A stretch of 64,000 nt of DNA from the NCBI GenBank assembly GCA_026929865.2, contig CM049408.1, forward strand, positions 22,212,501 to 22,276,500, in the 5' to 3' direction. The translations under genes were made by a program, and so were the position numbers. Positions within the stretch are counted from its first letter, which is position 1. Each line of letters opens with the position of its first letter. The DNA comes from Hyperoplus lanceolatus (taxonomy: Eukaryota; Chordata; Actinopteri; Uranoscopiformes; Ammodytidae). The notes under the pieces are model-generated. The model was not told the origin of the DNA, did not search any database, and was given only the letters and a program-made list of their open reading frames with translations. Shown piece by piece: positions 22,811 to 52,862 of the stretch.

Positions 22811-25800
22811 ATGGATTTGACCCGGTTGGCTGTGGATGCTGGGCAGTTCATCAACCGGGCTGTTCAGGTACAAAAAGAAACACTAAAAGAAAAGGAAATA
22901 CGAGTAAGATAACGTTTACGAGTAATTAATGAGCTTGTTCCCGTGGCCTATTGTTATTAAACGTCATTAACATATTCCCTCGCAGTCATTATAGTAGGTT
23001 GCTGTGTTTGTTTACAATTATACAATAAAAAGTACGTAGCCCTGTGTTCAACACATCTTCATTGTAAAGTGGCTAGTATGTGTGACTTAAATGCATATGA
23101 TGCTATCCTGTAATTCCAGTACACCGGGGAGAGTCTTGGCCAGGCAGACAAGACAGAGCTGGAACCCGGGCTCGAGGAGCTCCTGGCCCGGGCTGACGCC
23201 ACCAAGACCTGGACGGACCAGATCATCTCCCAGACTGAGGTTTTACTGCAGCCCAGCCCTGGTGAGAGATTGTTTATTTGGTGGTATTAATGATCTGTAT
23301 TAATGTATCCATAGTGTTGGTGGTGGCTCAGCTGTGATTTCAAAGATTCATATCATCAACATCTTCAAACATAGCCTAAAGTAGGAGTATAATATGTTTA
23401 CTCTATTCAGATTCACCTGGCCAAATATTTTAGCCCTGATAAACACATCATCCTCCCCCATTTTGCACCAAACCACAAGCTGCATGCACTAACACCAACA
23501 AGTGGGCACTGGCAAGTATGGTCTACATAAAACCACATAATGCTAAAGGCTATATCAGCTCTAATTGCTTTGACTGTTAGTAGTGGGCCTGTTCAGATGA
23601 ATAAGGGCAGACGGTTATGCTTTTCCCCATCTGAATCCAATTACCTCAGTTAATGGAATTAGAAGTGGACATGGTCTGTAATCTATCAAATAAAATGACC
23701 ATTAGGTTGCCCGAAATAAATTATCCTATGAGTGGTTCAGCATCAAAAGGATATAAATACGTCGGCCATGTCGTGTTTATCTATCGGCCGAAGGTTTTTA
23801 GTCTCTATGAACAATCATTTTTTGCTTACCTCAGGTATGGGCTTTTATGACAGGGACCAGCAGTTTGCAAGCTTAATTTATAAAATATCGGTTTACAATG
23901 CTTAGAATACAGTATTATGTCAATACCATGCATTGACTATTACATTATTGAATTTAACCCAGTCTATAATTTAACCTTTAAAGACCAGTCTTTGGCACCC
24001 TTTTAAAGGTTGAATCCTTATGTGAAGGATTTGTTTTTTTGCTCAGATCTCAGAGCTAATAAAAAAATATCAAGAAAATATTTATATTAGTCTTATAGCT
24101 TCTTCTTAACCGACATAACATAATCAAAATACATTTTTTAGTGCCCGTTGAGAAAAAATATGATCCTTGCTTGAACCTGAATTGAGCTCATTGATCTCTA
24201 CTCAACAGGAGCGCGGTTAGAGGACCAACTGTATAAGCATCTGGATTGGAATGTCCCTCCCCGTCCTCGTCCACACGAGGCACTGGGAGACGAAATGACC
24301 CAGGCTGGGATGGAAATAGGCTCCAACACACCCTATGGTGAGTATACATTGATGTGGATGATTTGAAATGTTGTCAGTGTGAGTTTTTTTTGTTTTATTT
24401 TATTTTATTTTATTTTAACAGTAGTATTGTTTTTGTTTAGGAACGGCACTGATCAGATGTGGAGACGCTCAGAAGCAGCTCGGCGAGGCAGAGAGGAAGT
24501 TTGTCCAAAGCACAAACATCCACTTTCTCACTCCTCTGAGGAGTTTTACCGAGGGTGAATACAGAGCCATACAGGTAACACACACGTAAACACATACACA
24601 CACACACACACACATCACCATTATGATTTATGGCTCTGAATGCACAGTATGTTTTTGGTCACATTCTCTGTAATTGTTTCTCTAAGTTCTTCCTGTGTTC
24701 ATGGTCAATCTGTTCTACATAAATTGTTAGTGTACGAAACATGGTTTTTGAAAAGTTTGTGTGTGTATTTTTTCATAGGATGAGCGCAAGATGTTGTTGA
24801 ATAAGCGTTTGGACTTGGACATAGCCACTACCAGACTGAGGAAAGCCCATGAGGCCGACCGAGAGGCCAGAGTGAGTTACAATGTCCTGACTTTAGTTTA
24901 GTTAAGTTTAGTTTATTTGTTTACAGTATTGTGGACAGTCTCCTTTGATTAACGTTACAGTAAAAGGAGCAGCTTTAGCCTATTTGGCTCATTTCCAGCT
25001 GTAGTCGCCGGCCAGTTGTCAGTAGACAACCAAAAATACATTAGTTAAAATAAAATAAAAAGTTAAATAAAAATGAAATACATGACATTACATTTATAAT
25101 TACAGGAGGCCTAAACAAAAGGGGAAAAAGACAAACAAACGTATTGCACACAGTTGGAGCAAGAACAAACAAGCAAGCACAGATGATGGCTTAGATATCA
25201 AGGCAGTTCAACAACACAAATACACAGGAGACAAGGAAAATAGGCCACAAGGGTCACATTAGAAGCACGTAAGACAGAACATGCAGGCAGGTAACAGAGA
25301 TGGAGCGGCAGCAACAATGACTAAGACTATGTCACATCAAACACACCAGTCACGTCTGATGGAGATTAATGTGTGCAGTTATAGTTGTCGGAAAGCCATG
25401 TCTTAACCTTGTATAGAAACATAGCCTTAAAATACATCATGCCTGGATCAATCCAGAAACACAATAAAATCCCTTCTCTGTCATACAGTTCATTTGGTAT
25501 TCCAACCCTGTGCTTTTTTCCCCACATCTCTTTCAGAACCTGAATGCCAACCCGCTGGAAGACGACTACACTGCTCATGTTTCCTACATGTTCAGCTTCC
25601 TGCGTGTTAAATGGCTGAAGGTCAGTGACTGTAATAAATGGGCGTGAACTTTGACAGGCCCAGCTGGACATTCTGTTTGGTCATTGAATAAGTCAAGTTT
25701 ATGCTCTGTCTCTCTCATCCAATCAGATCTGGGCTCAGGAAATCTCTCAGGTGAGTTCATGTTTATCTTTGCACGCACACAGGATCTGATATTTAAGTGT

Positions 25801-27052
25801 TCATCATGCTTAAAGCCACTACGAGTAACATGGCACGTTGGCGTCCCCTTTGGACAAAAGCGGTAGTATTTTTACGACGCCCGCTGTCGCAAAGCTGTTT
25901 TCTAGCTCGTGCCAGGCGTGCGAGTGTGAACTGAGAAGGGCGCAATATAGTGTATGTCCGTGTGTTGAAAGTGTGAGGACTCTTTTCGGCTCTGTGAGAG
26001 TGGTTTTGACACTGCATCAACTAATGCCAGTCAGTGCTACACACACCTGATTGCAATGAGTTGATGCAGCAGCGTCACCTAACTACTCTCTCTCACGGAG
26101 CTGAAAGATTACGTGTCCTCACAGAAAGCGAATGAAATAGAGACGGCAGTTAGGATGGATCACGATGAGGTAATGTGTTTGTGTTGTTGATGTAAATAAT
26201 GACTATTTCAGATAATGGTTATCTGATGATGGTGAAGCAAAGCAAACTTTGTGTTAGTACCAACCGCTCATTCATTTAGGAGTAAACACTGCAGTCTAGT
26301 TTCTCTCTTGTGAAATTGTATATACGTAGTATACCCACCCATAGCCTATATCACTCTCCCTTTTAGCTTTTCTTCATTGCATTCTCTTTTTTTTCTTTGA
26401 TGGTTCAGCCTCGTTATCAGTCATTATGACGACAAATAACTGTCTCAAACAAGGCTCCCGCTCCCCTTCCCTCACCTGGAGGGATAGGCTTCTATCCGAC
26501 CAATACGGATATGTGACCATAGAGCCTGCACGAGCAAACCGAAAATCGGACTGGGTGTGCGACCAGACCAAAAGCAGTAATAAAAACTATATAAAAACGT
26601 CTTTCTTTGCACTGATGGTCTCGTTTGCTGTTAAAGGTAATTTATGATTATCAGGGGAAACATGAGGCTGTTTAAAAGATATTCAAATGTTACTCGTAGC
26701 CGCTTTAACAGAGGTAGAATATATATACTGCATACATTGCCAGCAGTCATCACATTGTTTTGAAATGCGTTTGTTGTTAGTTGTAGTAATCGTTTTCTTT
26801 CTATTGTTGAATTCCTTTAGACATGTGCCCTTCTGGGATTTTCGTTTTTCACTAATAAAACATTTCCATAAATAATAATAGAACCATAAATAATGGTTGA
26901 ACATAATTTGAAAGGACATAACAATTGATTTTGTGTGTAGGCAGAGATGGAGCTGAGAATCTGTCAGAGTCTGTTCGATCGACAGTCGGAAACTACAAGA
27001 CGAGTTGTGGAAGGACTCAGCAACACGCATGTATGTACACAAAAGAACGCAT

Positions 27053-27092
<40 letters not shown>

Positions 27093-28827
27093 AATAATGA
27101 TACATCTCAAGCTTGGTAATTATTCGTATAACTGTTTGTGTAATTGTCACATGAACTATCCACAGACACACACTTTGAAGAACCCAATGCCAACAAAAGT
27201 CTTAGGTGTTCTGTTTTCGAAACTGTCGTTTTTCATACAAACACAAATGTCAGTTTATGAATAGCGAATGCAAATGACATTATTTAGTTTTTATTATATT
27301 TTTATCATAGCTTTTTCCTTTTTTTCCCATTTTATTTATTCATCTTGTGTTGTCATTTATTTTTCAGACCAACCACATGAGGAGCCTGACTGACTTTGTG
27401 GAGGCTCAGGCCTGTTACTTCGACCAGTGCAACCAACAAGCTCAGGAGCTTCACAAACAGCTCGCCAGGTGTGTATGTTTAGCTTATCACAACCTACTGT
27501 AAGGTAATCATTGTTGAATAAAATAATAATGCATGGGAGTCAATCTTTGATTTATTTTGCTATTTGGCCATTGCTATGCTTTATCTTAATTGAGGATAGA
27601 GTTTTACAGTGAAAACCATTCCCCTCCAGTTATAGCAAATTTGATTAAGTGGTCCTTTATGGTTTGAGGAAATTCTACTATTTATTCGTCTATTTTAAAG
27701 AATTGAAAAATCAGAATGACACGAAAAATGCAATGTCATCAAACTTAAAACAGGTCGGTCTTTCTGAGCTCATAGAATTTGATATTTTGGAGGTATAGTG
27801 TTTTTGCAGGGTCACAAAATGCACTTTTAATGTGCCTTCCGTAACATAGGATGGAAGAAAAACTGTTCAAAACTATTTTCTACAGAAACTTAATTGAAAA
27901 TATCACTCCCAAATCTATGCATGTGAAACATGGGATTACATTTTTATTCAACTCTATAAACCGGTTGTCAAAAGATCTCCGTAAGCGTGGAGATGCCCAG
28001 CTTTTACCACAAAGATGGAGCCAGGACATCTGGTCTCACAAAGAACACAAGACTATTGAGAATAATCTTTTAAAGCAGATGAATTTGTCCACATGAACGA
28101 CTTGGTTATGATGCAATTTCTCCTTTGCAGCATTCCAGCTGTCCTCTGCTCCAATAACTGGCAGTCAGAGATAAGCAATGCAGTCGATCAGCCGTCAACA
28201 AGCAACCACCATGTAGCCAATGGGCTCGTCGGGATAGATCAGATCACTCCAATTCACGTAGACGGCCACCAAAATTCAAACTTCAACCAGGATTCCTCAC
28301 CTGCCAATCCATCGCCCGGATCGGAAAAAACAACAACTGGTCCCTCTTTAACAACACAGCTACCTGATAGGTCAAATATCAACAGTAACAACAACAACTC
28401 CTTCACTGATGGCCAGGCAACCAGCAACAACTGTTCAGTAGCTGACCAGGGCTTTGATGATGTCTGTTTATCTAATTCAGATAACCACCCAACAGATCAG
28501 ATCTCAGCATTCACAACAACAAACAGAGCAACAGCTGCAATAATAACCAATGGTGCAGCAGGTAGTCTGACAGTAACAACTACAACAGAAACTGCTTCGC
28601 CACCTTCTGAACTCAGTGGAACCTCGAACAAGTCTCAGACAGAAAATGCGGTAGAAGCTGGTGAGACCATAACAACCGATGACATCATGGCTAGTGAGAC
28701 CTCGACAACCAATGGCATGGCAGCTGAGTCCCAAACAACCAATGAAACGGCAAGCGAGCTGCCCACCATTAATAGAGGAGACGTTCAGGACTCACATACA
28801 GCCAGTCAGGAGGAAGTGGTTGAGTAG
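22811..28827 (+). CDS. Endophilin-B-like BAR protein with no SH3 domain
   Basis: Ten exons in one open frame: 22811-22867, 23120-23261, 24209-24337, 24441-24574, 24779-24871, 25537-25620, 25727-25750, 26941-27030, 27368-27468, 28131-28827; 516 residues. Residues 1-285 follow endophilin B closely: N-terminal amphipathic helix LAVDAGQFINRAVQ, then QTEVLLQPSP, YGTALIRCG, NIHFLTPLRSFTEG and THTNHMRSLTDFVEAQ, that is an N-BAR membrane-bending dimer. The short exons 25537-25620 and 25727-25750 (IWAQEISQ) correspond to the optional insert known from longer SH3GLB1 isoforms. After the BAR domain the last exon codes about 230 residues rich in Ser, Thr and Asn, with a stop at 28825-28827. No SH3 signature (ALYDY-like, WW, PxxY) occurs in this exon or downstream to 34 kb. 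Family is firm; orthology to sh3glb1 or sh3glb2 is not. Confidence 0.85.
24593..24614. repeat. Short (CA)n repeat
   Basis: Short CA run about 20 bp after the donor of the exon ending at 24574 (GTAACACACACG). Confidence 0.85.
25814..26704. mobile_element. TTAA-flanked non-autonomous DNA transposon
   Basis: TTAA at 25810-25813 and 26705-26708. The ends are inverted repeats: AGCCACTACGAGTAACA on the left, and the complement of the right end is AGCGGCTACGAGTAACA. About 890 bp with no transposase reading frame. It lies in the intron between the exons ending at 25750 and starting at 26941 of the endophilin-like gene. Confidence 0.7.
27054..27090. repeat. (CA)n microsatellite
   Basis: Pure CA repeat 23 bp after the donor of the exon ending at 27030. 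Confidence 0.95.
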
Positions 28828-34530: not shown

Positions 34531-34536
34531 TATAAA
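34531..34536 (+). promoter_or_regulatory. TATA box of the ptx3-like gene
   Basis: TATAAA preceded by a GC-rich stretch (CTGGGCCCAT) and 165 bp before the chosen start codon. A TATA promoter fits an inducible secreted protein. Confidence 0.55.
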
Positions 34537-34695: not shown

Positions 34696-36108
34696 ATGAT
34701 GCACGTTTTCGGGTTCTGGCGTGGGCTGTGTGTGCTGCTGGGCTTGGTGGGCGCGACGTTGTGTGTGAATGAAGTTGAGTACGAAGGGAACTACGTGGAT
34801 AACTATGACAACGAGATCTCTCAGGACCAGCAGGAAGGTGAGTTTTCGTTTATTTTTGTCCTTTTGTCTCCTTTGTTTTTCTTCTTTGCGTGAACAGATG
34901 GCAGAATAGAAGATGGAAGAATTTGTGCGCAGCTGTCATGTCGGATTTAATTGAGCCAATAAAAGCCTTCTTGTGTGTTTTGATTACAAAATGCATCAAC
35001 ACACCTTGATTTGTTAGTTTTCAAAGGTAATTAAAGGCTGCCCTGCATATAGTTGGTCCAATAATTTTCACTACATACAGTAGAGCTCTTCTACTTCAAT
35101 ATAATGTGTGTTTTTATGCAGATGATCTTAAACCGTCATGGAAGGGGAAACATAACTCATGTATTTTATATGTTCATCAACATGTACTTTCATCTGTGCT
35201 TTTTTCGTTGTAAGTTTTTGTTTAACACCATTTTCCCAAACTTCATGTCCAGTAGTGTGTCCTTAGGTAGCCTACCCAGTATTTCTTTTTTCAATCACTA
35301 TTCCAACATTTAAGTGCATGTTATACCTGATTTTGACAATAAAGGTATAGTTTTATAATAAAAGTGTTACCAAATTAAATAAACAGTAATGTTAATATCT
35401 TCATTTATATTCATTGTAACTTTAAAACTGACTTGAAGATTGTATAACCGATGCATCCTTGTGGCTGTTGTCTATGCAGGGGAAACTCCGACGACACCGT
35501 GCCAGGCTGCGGAGTTCTCTCGCTGGGACAAGCTTTTCATCGCTCTGGAGAACTCCCACATGAGGCAGAACATGCTGCTGGACTCTCTGGGGCAATGCTG
35601 TGGAGGAATGCTCTCTCTCAGGAACCAAGTGGACAAATTGACCACCAAGGGGACATGCCAACAGTGTCTACCCAGCCTGGAGTCAGCGTGTCGGGGGCAA
35701 GCAGAGCAGGCTAGTGTCAGGCTACATAGAGGCTTCGTTAAGCTACAAGAAGAGGGAGCGGAGAGGGAGAGGAGGTTCAACGCTACCTTGCATCAGCTCC
35801 TACACAGCAGCCATGAGGGGAACGCCCGGCTGCAGCGTCTGGAGGAAGATAGGGGCCACAGAGTAGACAGAGGGATGGGCCACCAACAACCGACACCGCG
35901 ACCCAGGGGTTTATGGCCACCGTTTGGGACAAAGCCCTTCCTATCTGACCCTAAGGAGCAGGATACGACTACTGCACCGCTGGATGCGGCCACCACAATG
36001 CAGAGGGCCCTGGTTGCCATAGTGACAGAGCTGCAGAATGTTCACCTGCAGCTGAGCCGAGTGATAGAGCAGGCGGGGACGTCGCAGAAGGACAGAGGGG
36101 ACACATGA
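34696..36108 (+). CDS. Pentraxin-3-like secreted protein lacking the pentraxin domain
   Basis: Two exons, 34696-34837 and 35480-36108, coding 256 residues. Two ATGs in tandem (34696, 34699) open a signal peptide with core LCVLLGLVGATLC, followed by an acidic Tyr/Asn-rich segment as in PTX3. Exon 2 has SRWDKLFIALENSHMRQNML, the closest match to the PTX3 N-terminal SEWDKLFIMLENSQMRERML block, then coiled-coil-like heptads and six cysteines (TPC, QCC, TC, QC, AC) suited to interchain disulfides. PTX3 normally has a third exon of about 200 residues with the pentraxin fold and its HxCxS/TWxS signature. Here exon 2 runs to its own TGA (36106-36108) after VIEQAGTSQKDRGDT, with no good donor before it, and I find no pentraxin exon before slc35g2. 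An ATTAAA lies at about 36311. Role unknown; oligomerisation or ligand binding by the N-terminal region is an inference. Confidence 0.82.
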
Positions 36109-36611
36109 ATTGCAAAAAGGGAGAGAATAGTCAAAGATGGAGGCTGGATACACTCCAGCGCTAAGGATTTTGCACAGTAATTTTTTTTTATTGTTACTTT
36201 TAAAGGGCCCCTTTTTTTTTTTTTTTTTTTTTAATATGTGAGCATGTTTATGTCTGTTAACAATGTATTTAAAAGTACCATAAAAGTGTTGGGTTTTTAC
36301 TATGTTGGAATTAAAACGTATTAAACAACCTAACCCGCCTTGTGGAAAGGTTTCCTCCCTCCTCCCACACGGTAATCATCTCGTGTTTGCTTAGTTTTTT
36401 TTTGCTTACGCTTTCGTGCACATGCTAACACTTCCTTTTGCCAGTGTCATAGTGTTGTATTATTATTTTTGTATTATGTGTTATACTGGGCAGGCCTCGC
36501 CCTCTCATTAGCTGCTTTAAGAGTCTGTATGAGGAGGGGCCACGACTCACAATGATCACAGCGTTAATGAAACCGTGCCAGAGCTTATTACACTGCCGCC
36601 GGTCCCTCCTG

Positions 36612-46662: not shown

Positions 46663-47615
46663 TTACATATTAACATAAGACCCCTTCTTTGATATCACCT
46701 TCACAATTCCTGCATCCATTGAACTTGTGAGTTCTTGGGGAGTTTCTGCTTGAATATCTTTGCAGGATGCCAGAATAGCCTCCCATAGCTGCTGTTTTGA
46801 TGTGAACTGCCTCCCAACCTCATAGATGTTTTGCCTGAGGATGCTCCAAAGGTTCTCAATAGGTTTGAGGTCAGGGGAAGATAGGGGCCACAACATGAGG
46901 TTCTCTCCTTTTATGCCCATAGCAGCCAATGACACAGAGGTATTCTTTGCAGCATGAGATGGTGCAAAGATGATTTTACTACGGAAGGCACTGTCCTTCT
47001 TTTTGTACCACGGATGAAAGTGGTCAGTCAGAAACTCAGCATACTTTGCTGAGGTCATTTTCACACTGTCAGGGACCCTGAAGGTGCCAACCAGCTCTCT
47101 CCCCATGATTCCGGCCCAAAACATGACTCCACCACCTCCTGTCTGACGTTGCAGCCTTGTTGGGACATTGTGGCCATTCACCAACCATCCACTACTCCAT
47201 CCATCCGACCATCCAGGGTTACACGGCACTCATCAGTAAACAAGACTGTTTGAAGATGAGTCTTCATGTATTCCTGAGCCCACTGCAACTGTTTCAGCTT
47301 GTGATCATTGTTTAGGGGTGGCCGAATGATAGGTTTATGCACAACTGCAAACTTCTGGATCCTACACCTTGAGGTCCGAGGGACTCCAGAGGCACCAGAA
47401 GCTTCAAATACCTGTCTGCTGCTTTGTGATGGCATTTTAACAGCTGCTCTCCTATTCCGATGAATTTGTCTGGCAGAAACCTTCCTCATATTACCTTTAT
47501 CCGAACGAACCCGTCTGTGCTCTGAATCAGCCACAAATCTCTTCACAGTATGACGATCACACTTAGGTTTTCGTGAAATATCTAATGTTTTTTTACCTTG
47601 TCCAAGGTATTGCAC
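46663..47615 (-). pseudogene. Inactivated Tc1-like transposase
   Basis: Minus strand. The first part (47615 to about 47178) has the bipartite helix-turn-helix region and the first catalytic Asp in LFTDECRVTLDG. The frame then shifts near 47178-47229, where GGATGGTCGGATGGATGG-type tandem units have expanded. The second part has GGGGVMFWAGI and the catalytic-Glu block SSPDLKPIENLWSILRQN. The second catalytic Asp, normally in a QDNAPSHAAK-type motif, is missing: the text reads IIFAPSHAAK, a four-residue deletion. So both a frameshift and loss of a catalytic residue; the element cannot encode an active enzyme. Terminal repeats not clearly identified. Confidence 0.88.
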
Positions 47616-47688
47616 TATTTGACGCTTTTAGGCAGCAGAGAGATCCTTTTTCTTTTCCATAGTGCTTGAAATCTGTGGCCTGCTTAAT

Positions 47689-51270: not shown

Positions 51271-52862
51271 ATGCCACAGATGCCACAAGCATTGAGGGAG
51301 CGTGCAATTGGCATGCTGACAGCAGGAATGTCAACCAGATCTGTTGCTCGTGCATTGAATGTTCATTTCTCCACCATAAGCCGTCTCCAAAGGCGTTTCA
51401 GAGAATATGGCAGTACATCCAACCGGCCTCACAACCGCAGACCACGGCTGTGTCTTGATACAGGGGTTGCAGCCGACGTAGGCTGCATTTGAAGACCGAT
51501 TGCATCAAAGGCTGTCCCATTTGCAAGGCTCCTCATATGCGGCCGAGAAATGCAGCCTTCGTTTCACGGTTTTGAAGGCTGCATCAGATGTATCCTTCGT
51601 GGCCCAATATATCCCAAGATTCATTGCGTTTTTTCAGAGATTGCATAAAATAAAATAAAAAATAACAAAACAGCAACGTGTTGCTCCATCTTCTTAACTT
51701 TTATCTTCCTTTCTTTTTTTCTTGTACTTTTTTTTCTTTTCGTCTGGTAGGCAACTTCTTTTTATTTTTTCCTCCATTGACAGGGCTGTCTCCGTTGGCA
51801 GCAATCAGGGTTGCTAGGCAGCACAGGAGCGGCGAGTCGTCACGCAAGGTAACGGCTTGTTACGTAAACCGGAAATGCTCGTAAACGGAGACCTGTGGAG
51901 ACCGTCTCATTTAACAAGGCTCGTTGGCCTTGGAATCGGCCTTAAAATCGGCCTTCATAGGCTATAGCCTTCATAGACTGCGTCCTACCAAGTGCGTGGT
52001 CTCTGTAATGGGACATAGCACACGTGTAACCACACCAGCCCAGGACCTCCACATCCAGCAGGTTCACCTCCAAGATCGTCTGAGACCAGCCACTGAGACA
52101 GCTGCTGAAACAATTGGTTTGCATAACCAAACAATTTCTGCACAAACTGTCAGAAACCGTCTCAGGGAAGCTCAACTGCATGCTCGTCGTCCTCATCGGG
52201 GTCTTGACCTGACTCCAGCTCGTCGCCGTAACAGACTTGAGTGGGCAAATGCTCACATTCGATGGCGTCTGGCACGTTGGAGAGGTGTTCTCTTCACGGA
52301 TGAATCTCGGTTTACATTGTTCAGGGAAGATGGCAGACAGCGTGTGTGGCGTCGTGTGGGTGAGCGCTTTGCTGATGTCAATGTTGTGGATCGAGTGGCC
52401 CATGGTGGTGGTGGGGCTATGGTATGGGCAGGCATCTGTTATGGACGAAGAACACAGGTGCATTTTATTGATGGCATTTTGAATGCACAGAGATACCGTG
52501 ATGAGATCCTGAGGCCCATTGTTGTGCCATACATCCATGAACATCACCTCACGTTTCAGCAAGATAATGCACGGCCCCATGTTGCAAGGATCTGTACACA
52601 ATTCTTGGAAGCTGAAAATGTCCCAGTTCTTGCATGGCCAGCATACTCACCGGACATGTCACCCATTGAGCATGTTTGGGATGTGCTTGACCGGCGTATA
52701 CGAAAGCGTGCACCACTTCCCACTAATATCCAGCAACTTCGCACAGCCATTGAAGAGGAGTGGACCAACATTCCACAGGCCACAATTGACAATCTGATAA
52801 ACTCTATGCGAAGAAGATGTGTTGCACTGCATGAGGCAAATGGTGGTCACACCAGATACTGA
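51271..52862 (+). pseudogene. Tc1-like transposase interrupted by a 573-bp insertion
   Basis: The N-terminal part (51271-51446) begins MPQMPQALRERAIGML and carries the paired-type helix-turn-helix (STRSVARALNVHFSTISRLQ). The C-terminal part (52025-52862) begins at VTTPAQDLHIQ and contains all three catalytic residues: LFTDESRFTLF, FQQDNARPHVAR and AYSPDMSPIEHVWDVLDRR, a DD34E arrangement. It ends NGGHTRY, stop 52860-52862. The two halves are separated by foreign sequence that introduces stops; I see no other damage to the halves, which suggests recent insertion. As it stands no full enzyme can be made. Confidence 0.92.
51447..52019. mobile_element. 573-bp non-autonomous element inserted in the Tc1 transposase
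   Basis: Interrupts the transposase between its proline-arginine linker and VTTPAQ. Ends resemble inverted repeats: left GCTGTGTCTTGATACAGGGG, complement of right end GCTATGTCCCATTACAGAGA. Flanks CCACG and ACACG may be a 5-bp target duplication with one change. Internal copies of AAGGCTGCAT and GGCCTT(C/A)ATAGGC occur. Superfamily not clear. Confidence 0.7.

Follow-up and report, generated by a model that had tools for sequence, protein, structure and literature searches.

In the neuronal pentraxins and PTX4, a long N-terminal half stands ahead of the pentraxin domain. The N-terminal half of PTX3 alone supports matrix and binds FGF2 as a tetramer, and the ARPCA stretch at Cys103 of human PTX3 has a role involving FGF2. 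To our knowledge, it is only in the laboratory that PTX3 has been split into its two halves. The N-terminal regions of human PTX3 are joined by interchain disulfides and assemble into tetrameric coiled coils (PMC10598717), and recombinant N_PTX3 alone forms tetramers and restored cumulus matrix assembly (PMC3507621). The parts of PMC7409334 cited here report that primary cilia were lengthened by overexpression of a human N-terminal fragment and not of a C-terminal one, and that this effect runs through FGF. In section 2.1 of the same paper, zebrafish ptx3a and ptx3b are both described with three exons and a pentraxin signature; the synteny of ptx3a includes veph1, and the set around ptx3b differs.

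The gene described here resembles PTX3 and zebrafish ptx3a and ptx3b in its leader, acidic segment, WDKLF-LENS-MR-MLL block, two corresponding cysteines, and intron 1 phase, and its helix ends near the position of the PTX3 exon 2/3 junction. Unlike PTX3, it has its own stop codon, lies outside veph1, and carries extra cysteines, and neither a pentraxin exon nor a good exon 2 donor was found for it. Recombinant N_PTX3, as described in the parts of PMC3507621 used here, is similar in extent, lacks the pentraxin domain, and has cysteines able to link chains; however, it is a laboratory truncation, whereas the present version is apparently encoded by a gene and has widely diverged in sequence. In searches of the open text of PubMed Central, no N-terminal-only PTX3 gene was seen among the papers listed.

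Gene model and surroundings

The window, that is, the whole stretch of DNA that was analyzed, comprises 64,000 nucleotides (C14:22212501-22276500; genome total, 806.7 Mb), and in our judgment its gene content points to a fish. Re-translation showed that the coordinates proposed in the initial annotation were exact, with coding parts at 34696-34837 and 35480-36108 on the plus strand and a coding length of 771 nt (256 aa plus stop). A second in-frame ATG follows the start codon at 34696. The coding part of exon 1 (34696 to 34837) encodes a leader that is hydrophobic by sequence inspection and is a putative signal peptide, followed by an acidic segment with 9 acidic and 0 basic residues among the 30 residues after residue 24. 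Intron 1 (34838 to 35479, plus strand) is a phase 1, GT-AG intron with the donor AAG/GTGAGT. The coding part of exon 2 (35480 to 36108) contains the WDKLF-ALENS-MR-NMLL block, a cysteine cluster, and a C-terminal heptad stretch, and ends in TGA at 36106-36108. The GC contents at the three codon positions were 0.611, 0.432, and 0.677; the intron had a value of 0.332, and the 292 bases past the stop had one of 0.342. On the same strand, a putative TATA box (TATAAA, 34531 to 34536), proposed from its position only, lies 165 bases 5' of the start codon, with three further TATA-like hexamers within 1 kb upstream. A scan of that 1 kb gave a single core match each for AP-1 and PU.1, counts that point neither way, and no NF-kB, C/EBP, or STAT consensus. 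About 200 bases 3' of the stop, ATTAAA occurs twice as a poly(A)-type signal (36310 and 36320, together 36310 to 36325, plus strand).

Upstream, atr (PDB ATR, 4e-26; FATC, 1.8e-13) is followed by an endophilin-B-like gene and then by the PTX3-like gene. Downstream, in tail-to-tail orientation, lies a gene with an EamA match (5.5e-10), which we, like the initial annotation, take by recognition to be slc35g2. Farther along C14 lies a gene for cohesin SA whose best PDB match is SA-1, together with genes that we recognized by eye and take to be hltf, gyg1, pccb, and msl2. Since the human counterparts of these neighbors lie on 3q22-q24 and PTX3 on 3q25, an old link between the window locus and the PTX3 region is plausible.

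The endophilin-B1-like gene (window 22811-28827, plus strand; BAR domain, 1e-53; PDB endophilin-B1, 9.4e-82) was modeled by splice consensus with ten exons encoding 516 aa. Endophilin-B1 has an SH3 domain at the C-terminal place; the last exon modeled here encodes a Ser/Thr/Asn-rich tail with no SH3 match, so that two successive genes, endophilin-B1-like and PTX3-like, are without their usual C-terminal domain. By eye, two Tc1/mariner-like transposase frames were seen in the window, one at 46666-47627 on the minus strand in two overlapping pieces and one at 51915-52859 on the plus strand, open over 315 codons. Immunoglobulin light-chain-like segments were likewise seen at C14:22145600-22160300 (L028 and L027), about 52 to 67 kb upstream of the window.

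Similarity to PTX3 along the protein

When the PDB was searched by phmmer with the 256-aa protein, human PTX3 was the top match (7zl1; E = 4.8e-11; residues 26 to 145), and a second human PTX3 entry was also found (8s50; E = 6e-11). The sole other match up to an E value of 1 was a ribosomal protein (0.72), and no neuronal pentraxin was among the matches up to that value. A two-sequence profile matched the protein at 1.1e-22 in a nominal search of 100,000. The whole protein aligned with the human N-terminal region at a local score of 152, which was reached in 0 of 2,000 shuffles. The similarity to PTX3 therefore goes beyond chance, and the possibility of a chance resemblance was rejected. Pattern searches for relatives gave no match in viral contigs, and none of the 211 pattern matches in prokaryote genomes was a relative by tblastn; both results are as expected for a fish gene.

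The initial annotation had pointed to true ptx3 genes elsewhere in the genome, and a complete copy with a pentraxin domain was indeed located within veph1 on C4. This gene (C4:25634344 to 25642915) encodes 468 aa, matches human PTX3 at 7.3e-91, and has four coding exons as modeled by splice consensus. A further intron (C4, L009 2789-3335) divides its exon 2 and appears to be absent from the window copy, in which exon 2 is unsplit. Its intron 2 is about 3.5 kb as modeled. Among the 8 pentraxin loci inspected by eye, of at least 63 in the genome, only this one carried PTX3 hallmarks. With the human VEPH1 sequence as the query, 11 matching stretches were found in 70 kb of C4, which place ptx3 between veph1 exons on the opposite strand; the same query matched nothing in the 264 kb around the window gene on C14. 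Human PTX3 also lies inside VEPH1. In a further comparison, exon 1 of zebrafish ptx3a, whose sequence is contained in a homology arm given in PMC9747719, scored 73 against exon 1 of the C4 gene and 45 against that of the window copy. Because of its veph1 location and these scores, the C4 gene fits ptx3a. The window copy looks like a lineage other than the C4 ptx3, and its assignment as the counterpart of ptx3b is only a guess.

The window gene and the complete C4 ptx3 share the phase (1) of intron 1, and their first exons align at a score of 53 (mean of 1,000 shuffles, 21.2; standard deviation, 4.3; highest, 40). The alignment with human PTX3 and the C4 ptx3 showed a common acidic segment, WDKLF-LENS-MR-MLL block, and last helix-like stretch. 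Within the 22-residue core around the WDKLF-LENS block, the window copy is identical to human PTX3 at 16 residues and to the C4 protein at 14. Together with the phmmer match, the score of 152, and the common intron phase, the claim of the initial annotation that exons 1 and 2 match PTX3 was borne out. Counterparts of the N-terminal interchain cysteines of the human protein (47, 49, and 103) are present by alignment, the bonds themselves being predicted: Cys55 of the window protein aligns with the second member of the human 47/49 pair, for which both the window protein and the C4 ptx3 have a single cysteine, and Cys110 aligns with human Cys103. The window protein has extra cysteines at 87, 88, 107, and 118, which could alter the disulfides. 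Neither the window copy nor the C4 ptx3 retains the ARPCA sequence that human PTX3 has at Cys103.

The strength of the PTX3 homology is, on these alignment scores, uneven along the protein. The part past the WDKLF block scored 56 against human PTX3 (1 of 2,000 shuffles as good), and residues 85 onward scored 51 against the C4 protein, which is within the shuffles (mean, 31.0; highest of 1,000, 61). The last stretch of the window protein, RALVAIVTELQNVHLQLSRV, aligned with human RALAAVLEELRQTRADLHAV, and the last 45 residues scored 35 against human PTX3 (shuffle mean, 19.0; 1 of 2,000 as good). The tail scored 25 against the C4 ptx3, not above the shuffles (328 of 2,000 as good), as was also the case for the last 60 residues, and it was missed by the two-sequence profile (second domain, -1.2 bits). 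The best heptad stretch of the window protein was LDAATTMQRALVAIVTELQNVHLQLSRV; shuffles as good were obtained in 5 of 300 trials for this protein, 8 of 300 for human PTX3, and 26 of 300 for the C4 protein.

The end of exon 2 and the pentraxin exon

As the initial annotation had stated, exon 2 ends with its own stop, and the frame is open up to the TGA. When the three proteins are aligned, the final stretch is free of gaps up to the residue at the exon 2/3 junction, and only two codons more separate this point from the end of the window gene's frame. The place that would correspond to the PTX3 exon 2/3 junction, as suggested by the alignment of a weakly similar tail and by the bases, is 36097 to 36102 on the plus strand. 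The bases there are G/GT in the C4 ptx3 versus G/GG, followed by GAC ACA TGA, in the window gene. The zebrafish ptx3b junction also reads G/GT in the primer and morpholino sequences given in PMC7409334. Scored with a donor matrix, the four donors modeled in the window gene and the C4 ptx3 reached 6.0 to 12.3, and none of the 22 GT dinucleotides in exon 2 scored above 2; the first GT above that score is at 36177, past the stop.

The pentraxin exon was sought in 264 kb, comprising the window and 100 kb on each side. A tblastn search of this region with the complete Ptx3 encoded on C4 gave one match below an E value of 1, to the N-terminal half, and the pentraxin half gave E values of 2.3 or above. 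A profile built from six pentraxin exons of the same genome, run unfiltered in six frames with stops masked, gave a best E value of 0.74 in the region versus 1.7e-71 on C4 as a control. The earlier statement that no pentraxin exon precedes slc35g2 thus holds over the whole 264 kb. By Pfam, which gave the protein no family even at an E value of 1, and by the lack of such an exon in the 264 kb, the C-terminal pentraxin domain is absent from the window protein, and the three-exon structure of PTX3 was not found in its gene, with neither an exon 2 donor nor an exon 3 detected. The gene is a relative of PTX3 by descent and not a pentraxin by domain.

The genome as a whole contains at least 63 matches to the Pfam pentraxin family. 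Clusters of these are seen on C68 (14 copies; C68:649-44827) and C13 (6 copies; C13:28273120-28280201 and C13:28757587-28758239), with identical or almost identical scores; in 9 of the 20, the stretch that matched contains an in-frame TAG. Among the matches listed, two are on C14, near 2.59 Mb, about 19.6 Mb from the window gene.

If a far pentraxin exon were joined by long-range or alternative splicing, the gene would be an ordinary long pentraxin whose end had been misjudged. The only point in line with this explanation is the long intron 2 modeled in the C4 ptx3. Such an intron would have to span slc35g2, which is found in tail-to-tail orientation about 2.5 kb downstream; no pentraxin match was found in the 100 kb downstream, the nearest among the matches listed on C14 being those near 2.59 Mb, and no GT before the stop scored above 2. 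Splicing out of exon 2 before 36108, the outcome that the initial annotation had set against its own reading, is thus unlikely by sequence, with no GT in exon 2 scoring above 2 and no target exon found within 100 kb, and we regard the far-exon explanation as extremely improbable. An assembly error, in which exon 3 of the true gene was dropped or a stretch was misjoined, is also very improbable, and nothing was seen in its favor. The window contains no N, so that a marked gap cannot account for the missing exon, and it lies on a contig of 32.5 Mb; a misjoin would have to mimic a frame running past the old junction, an own stop, and poly(A) signals; and no second locus with PTX3 hallmarks was recognized among the 8 inspected by eye. 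Both explanations were judged unlikely. The observation made in the initial annotation is right, and stronger than was stated there. For the end of the gene, the simplest history suggested by the sequence is that the donor was lost, translation read through into the former intron, and the last exon was lost, probably by deletion; this history leans on the weak tail alignment.

Age of the copy and its proposed product

The local scores were 170 between the window copy and the C4 ptx3, 152 between the window copy and human PTX3, and 190 between the C4 ptx3 and human PTX3. The window copy therefore appears to be about as distant from the C4 ptx3 as from human PTX3. Synonymous differences between the two fish copies approached saturation, with block values of pS from 0.63 to 0.76, and pN was 0.27 in the core, 0.31 in exon 1, and 0.55 in residues 104-256, which have strongly diverged from the C4 protein (dN, about 1.0). 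From these values, the window copy is probably old; greater divergence can also reflect faster change instead of greater age. In neutral simulations of the window frame (2,000 runs per level, no insertions or deletions), the frame stayed free of stops in 2 of 2,000 runs at 0.3 substitutions per site and in 0 of 2,000 at 0.5. Because neutral frames this old rarely stay open, constraint probably acted on the frame during most of its past. The argument does not reach to the time after the loss of exon 3, because at 0.05 substitutions per site 486 of 2,000 runs were still open.

The gene could instead be a recent relic, a full ptx3 copy until recently that lost exon 3 in this lineage and persists as a still-open, decaying fragment. 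Short neutral periods do leave such frames open (1,160 of 2,000 runs at 0.02, 486 at 0.05, and 141 at 0.1 substitutions per site), and the three exons and pentraxin signature of both zebrafish genes (PMC7409334, section 2.1) are in line with a recent loss: if the window copy corresponds to ptx3a or ptx3b, exon 3 was lost later than the ptx3a/ptx3b split. On the other side, the start, donor, acceptor, and stop are all intact and are followed by poly(A) signals, and the search within 100 kb revealed no trace of the pentraxin exon, which fits an old loss and also a clean deletion. We consider a recent relic unlikely, though well within consideration.

The best explanation, which we hold to be probable, is that the window gene is an old ptx3 duplicate that has lost its pentraxin exon, has its own stop and poly(A) signal, and encodes a secreted oligomeric linker. 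Its mRNA would have two coding exons, and the protein would be secreted and form covalent oligomers, probably tetramers, through the coiled coil and the cysteines matching PTX3 Cys49 and Cys103. It would be a multivalent linker that lacks pattern recognition. It may bind hyaluronan-bound heavy chains or TSG-6 and thereby cross-link matrix, it may trap FGFs, or it may mix with full-length Ptx3 subunits and so compete with Ptx3. Of these roles, the one in FGF trapping is less certain, because ARPCA is kept in neither fish copy. The suggestion in the initial annotation that a free N-terminal protein could modulate immunity or matrix is reasonable, since the recombinant N-terminal region alone, in the part of PMC3507621 used here, tetramerizes and works in matrix. 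Our functional reading of the gene is likewise plausible, if unproven. A wider proposal is tentative and rather doubtful: a fish-wide family split from ptx3 and kept by selection with the oligomerizing half only, serving as a dedicated matrix cross-linker or growth-factor trap released from the recognition of microbes, or as a built-in competitor that restricts Ptx3 assembly.

What is new here is a PTX3 paralog cut down to its oligomerizing half, so that the genome appears to encode a fragment like the one made in the laboratory. As the Pfam result for the 256-aa protein illustrates, annotation by domain profiles can miss such genes. If the gene does act in nature as the N-terminal half of PTX3, its removal in a fish could show which functions of PTX3 need the pentraxin domain.
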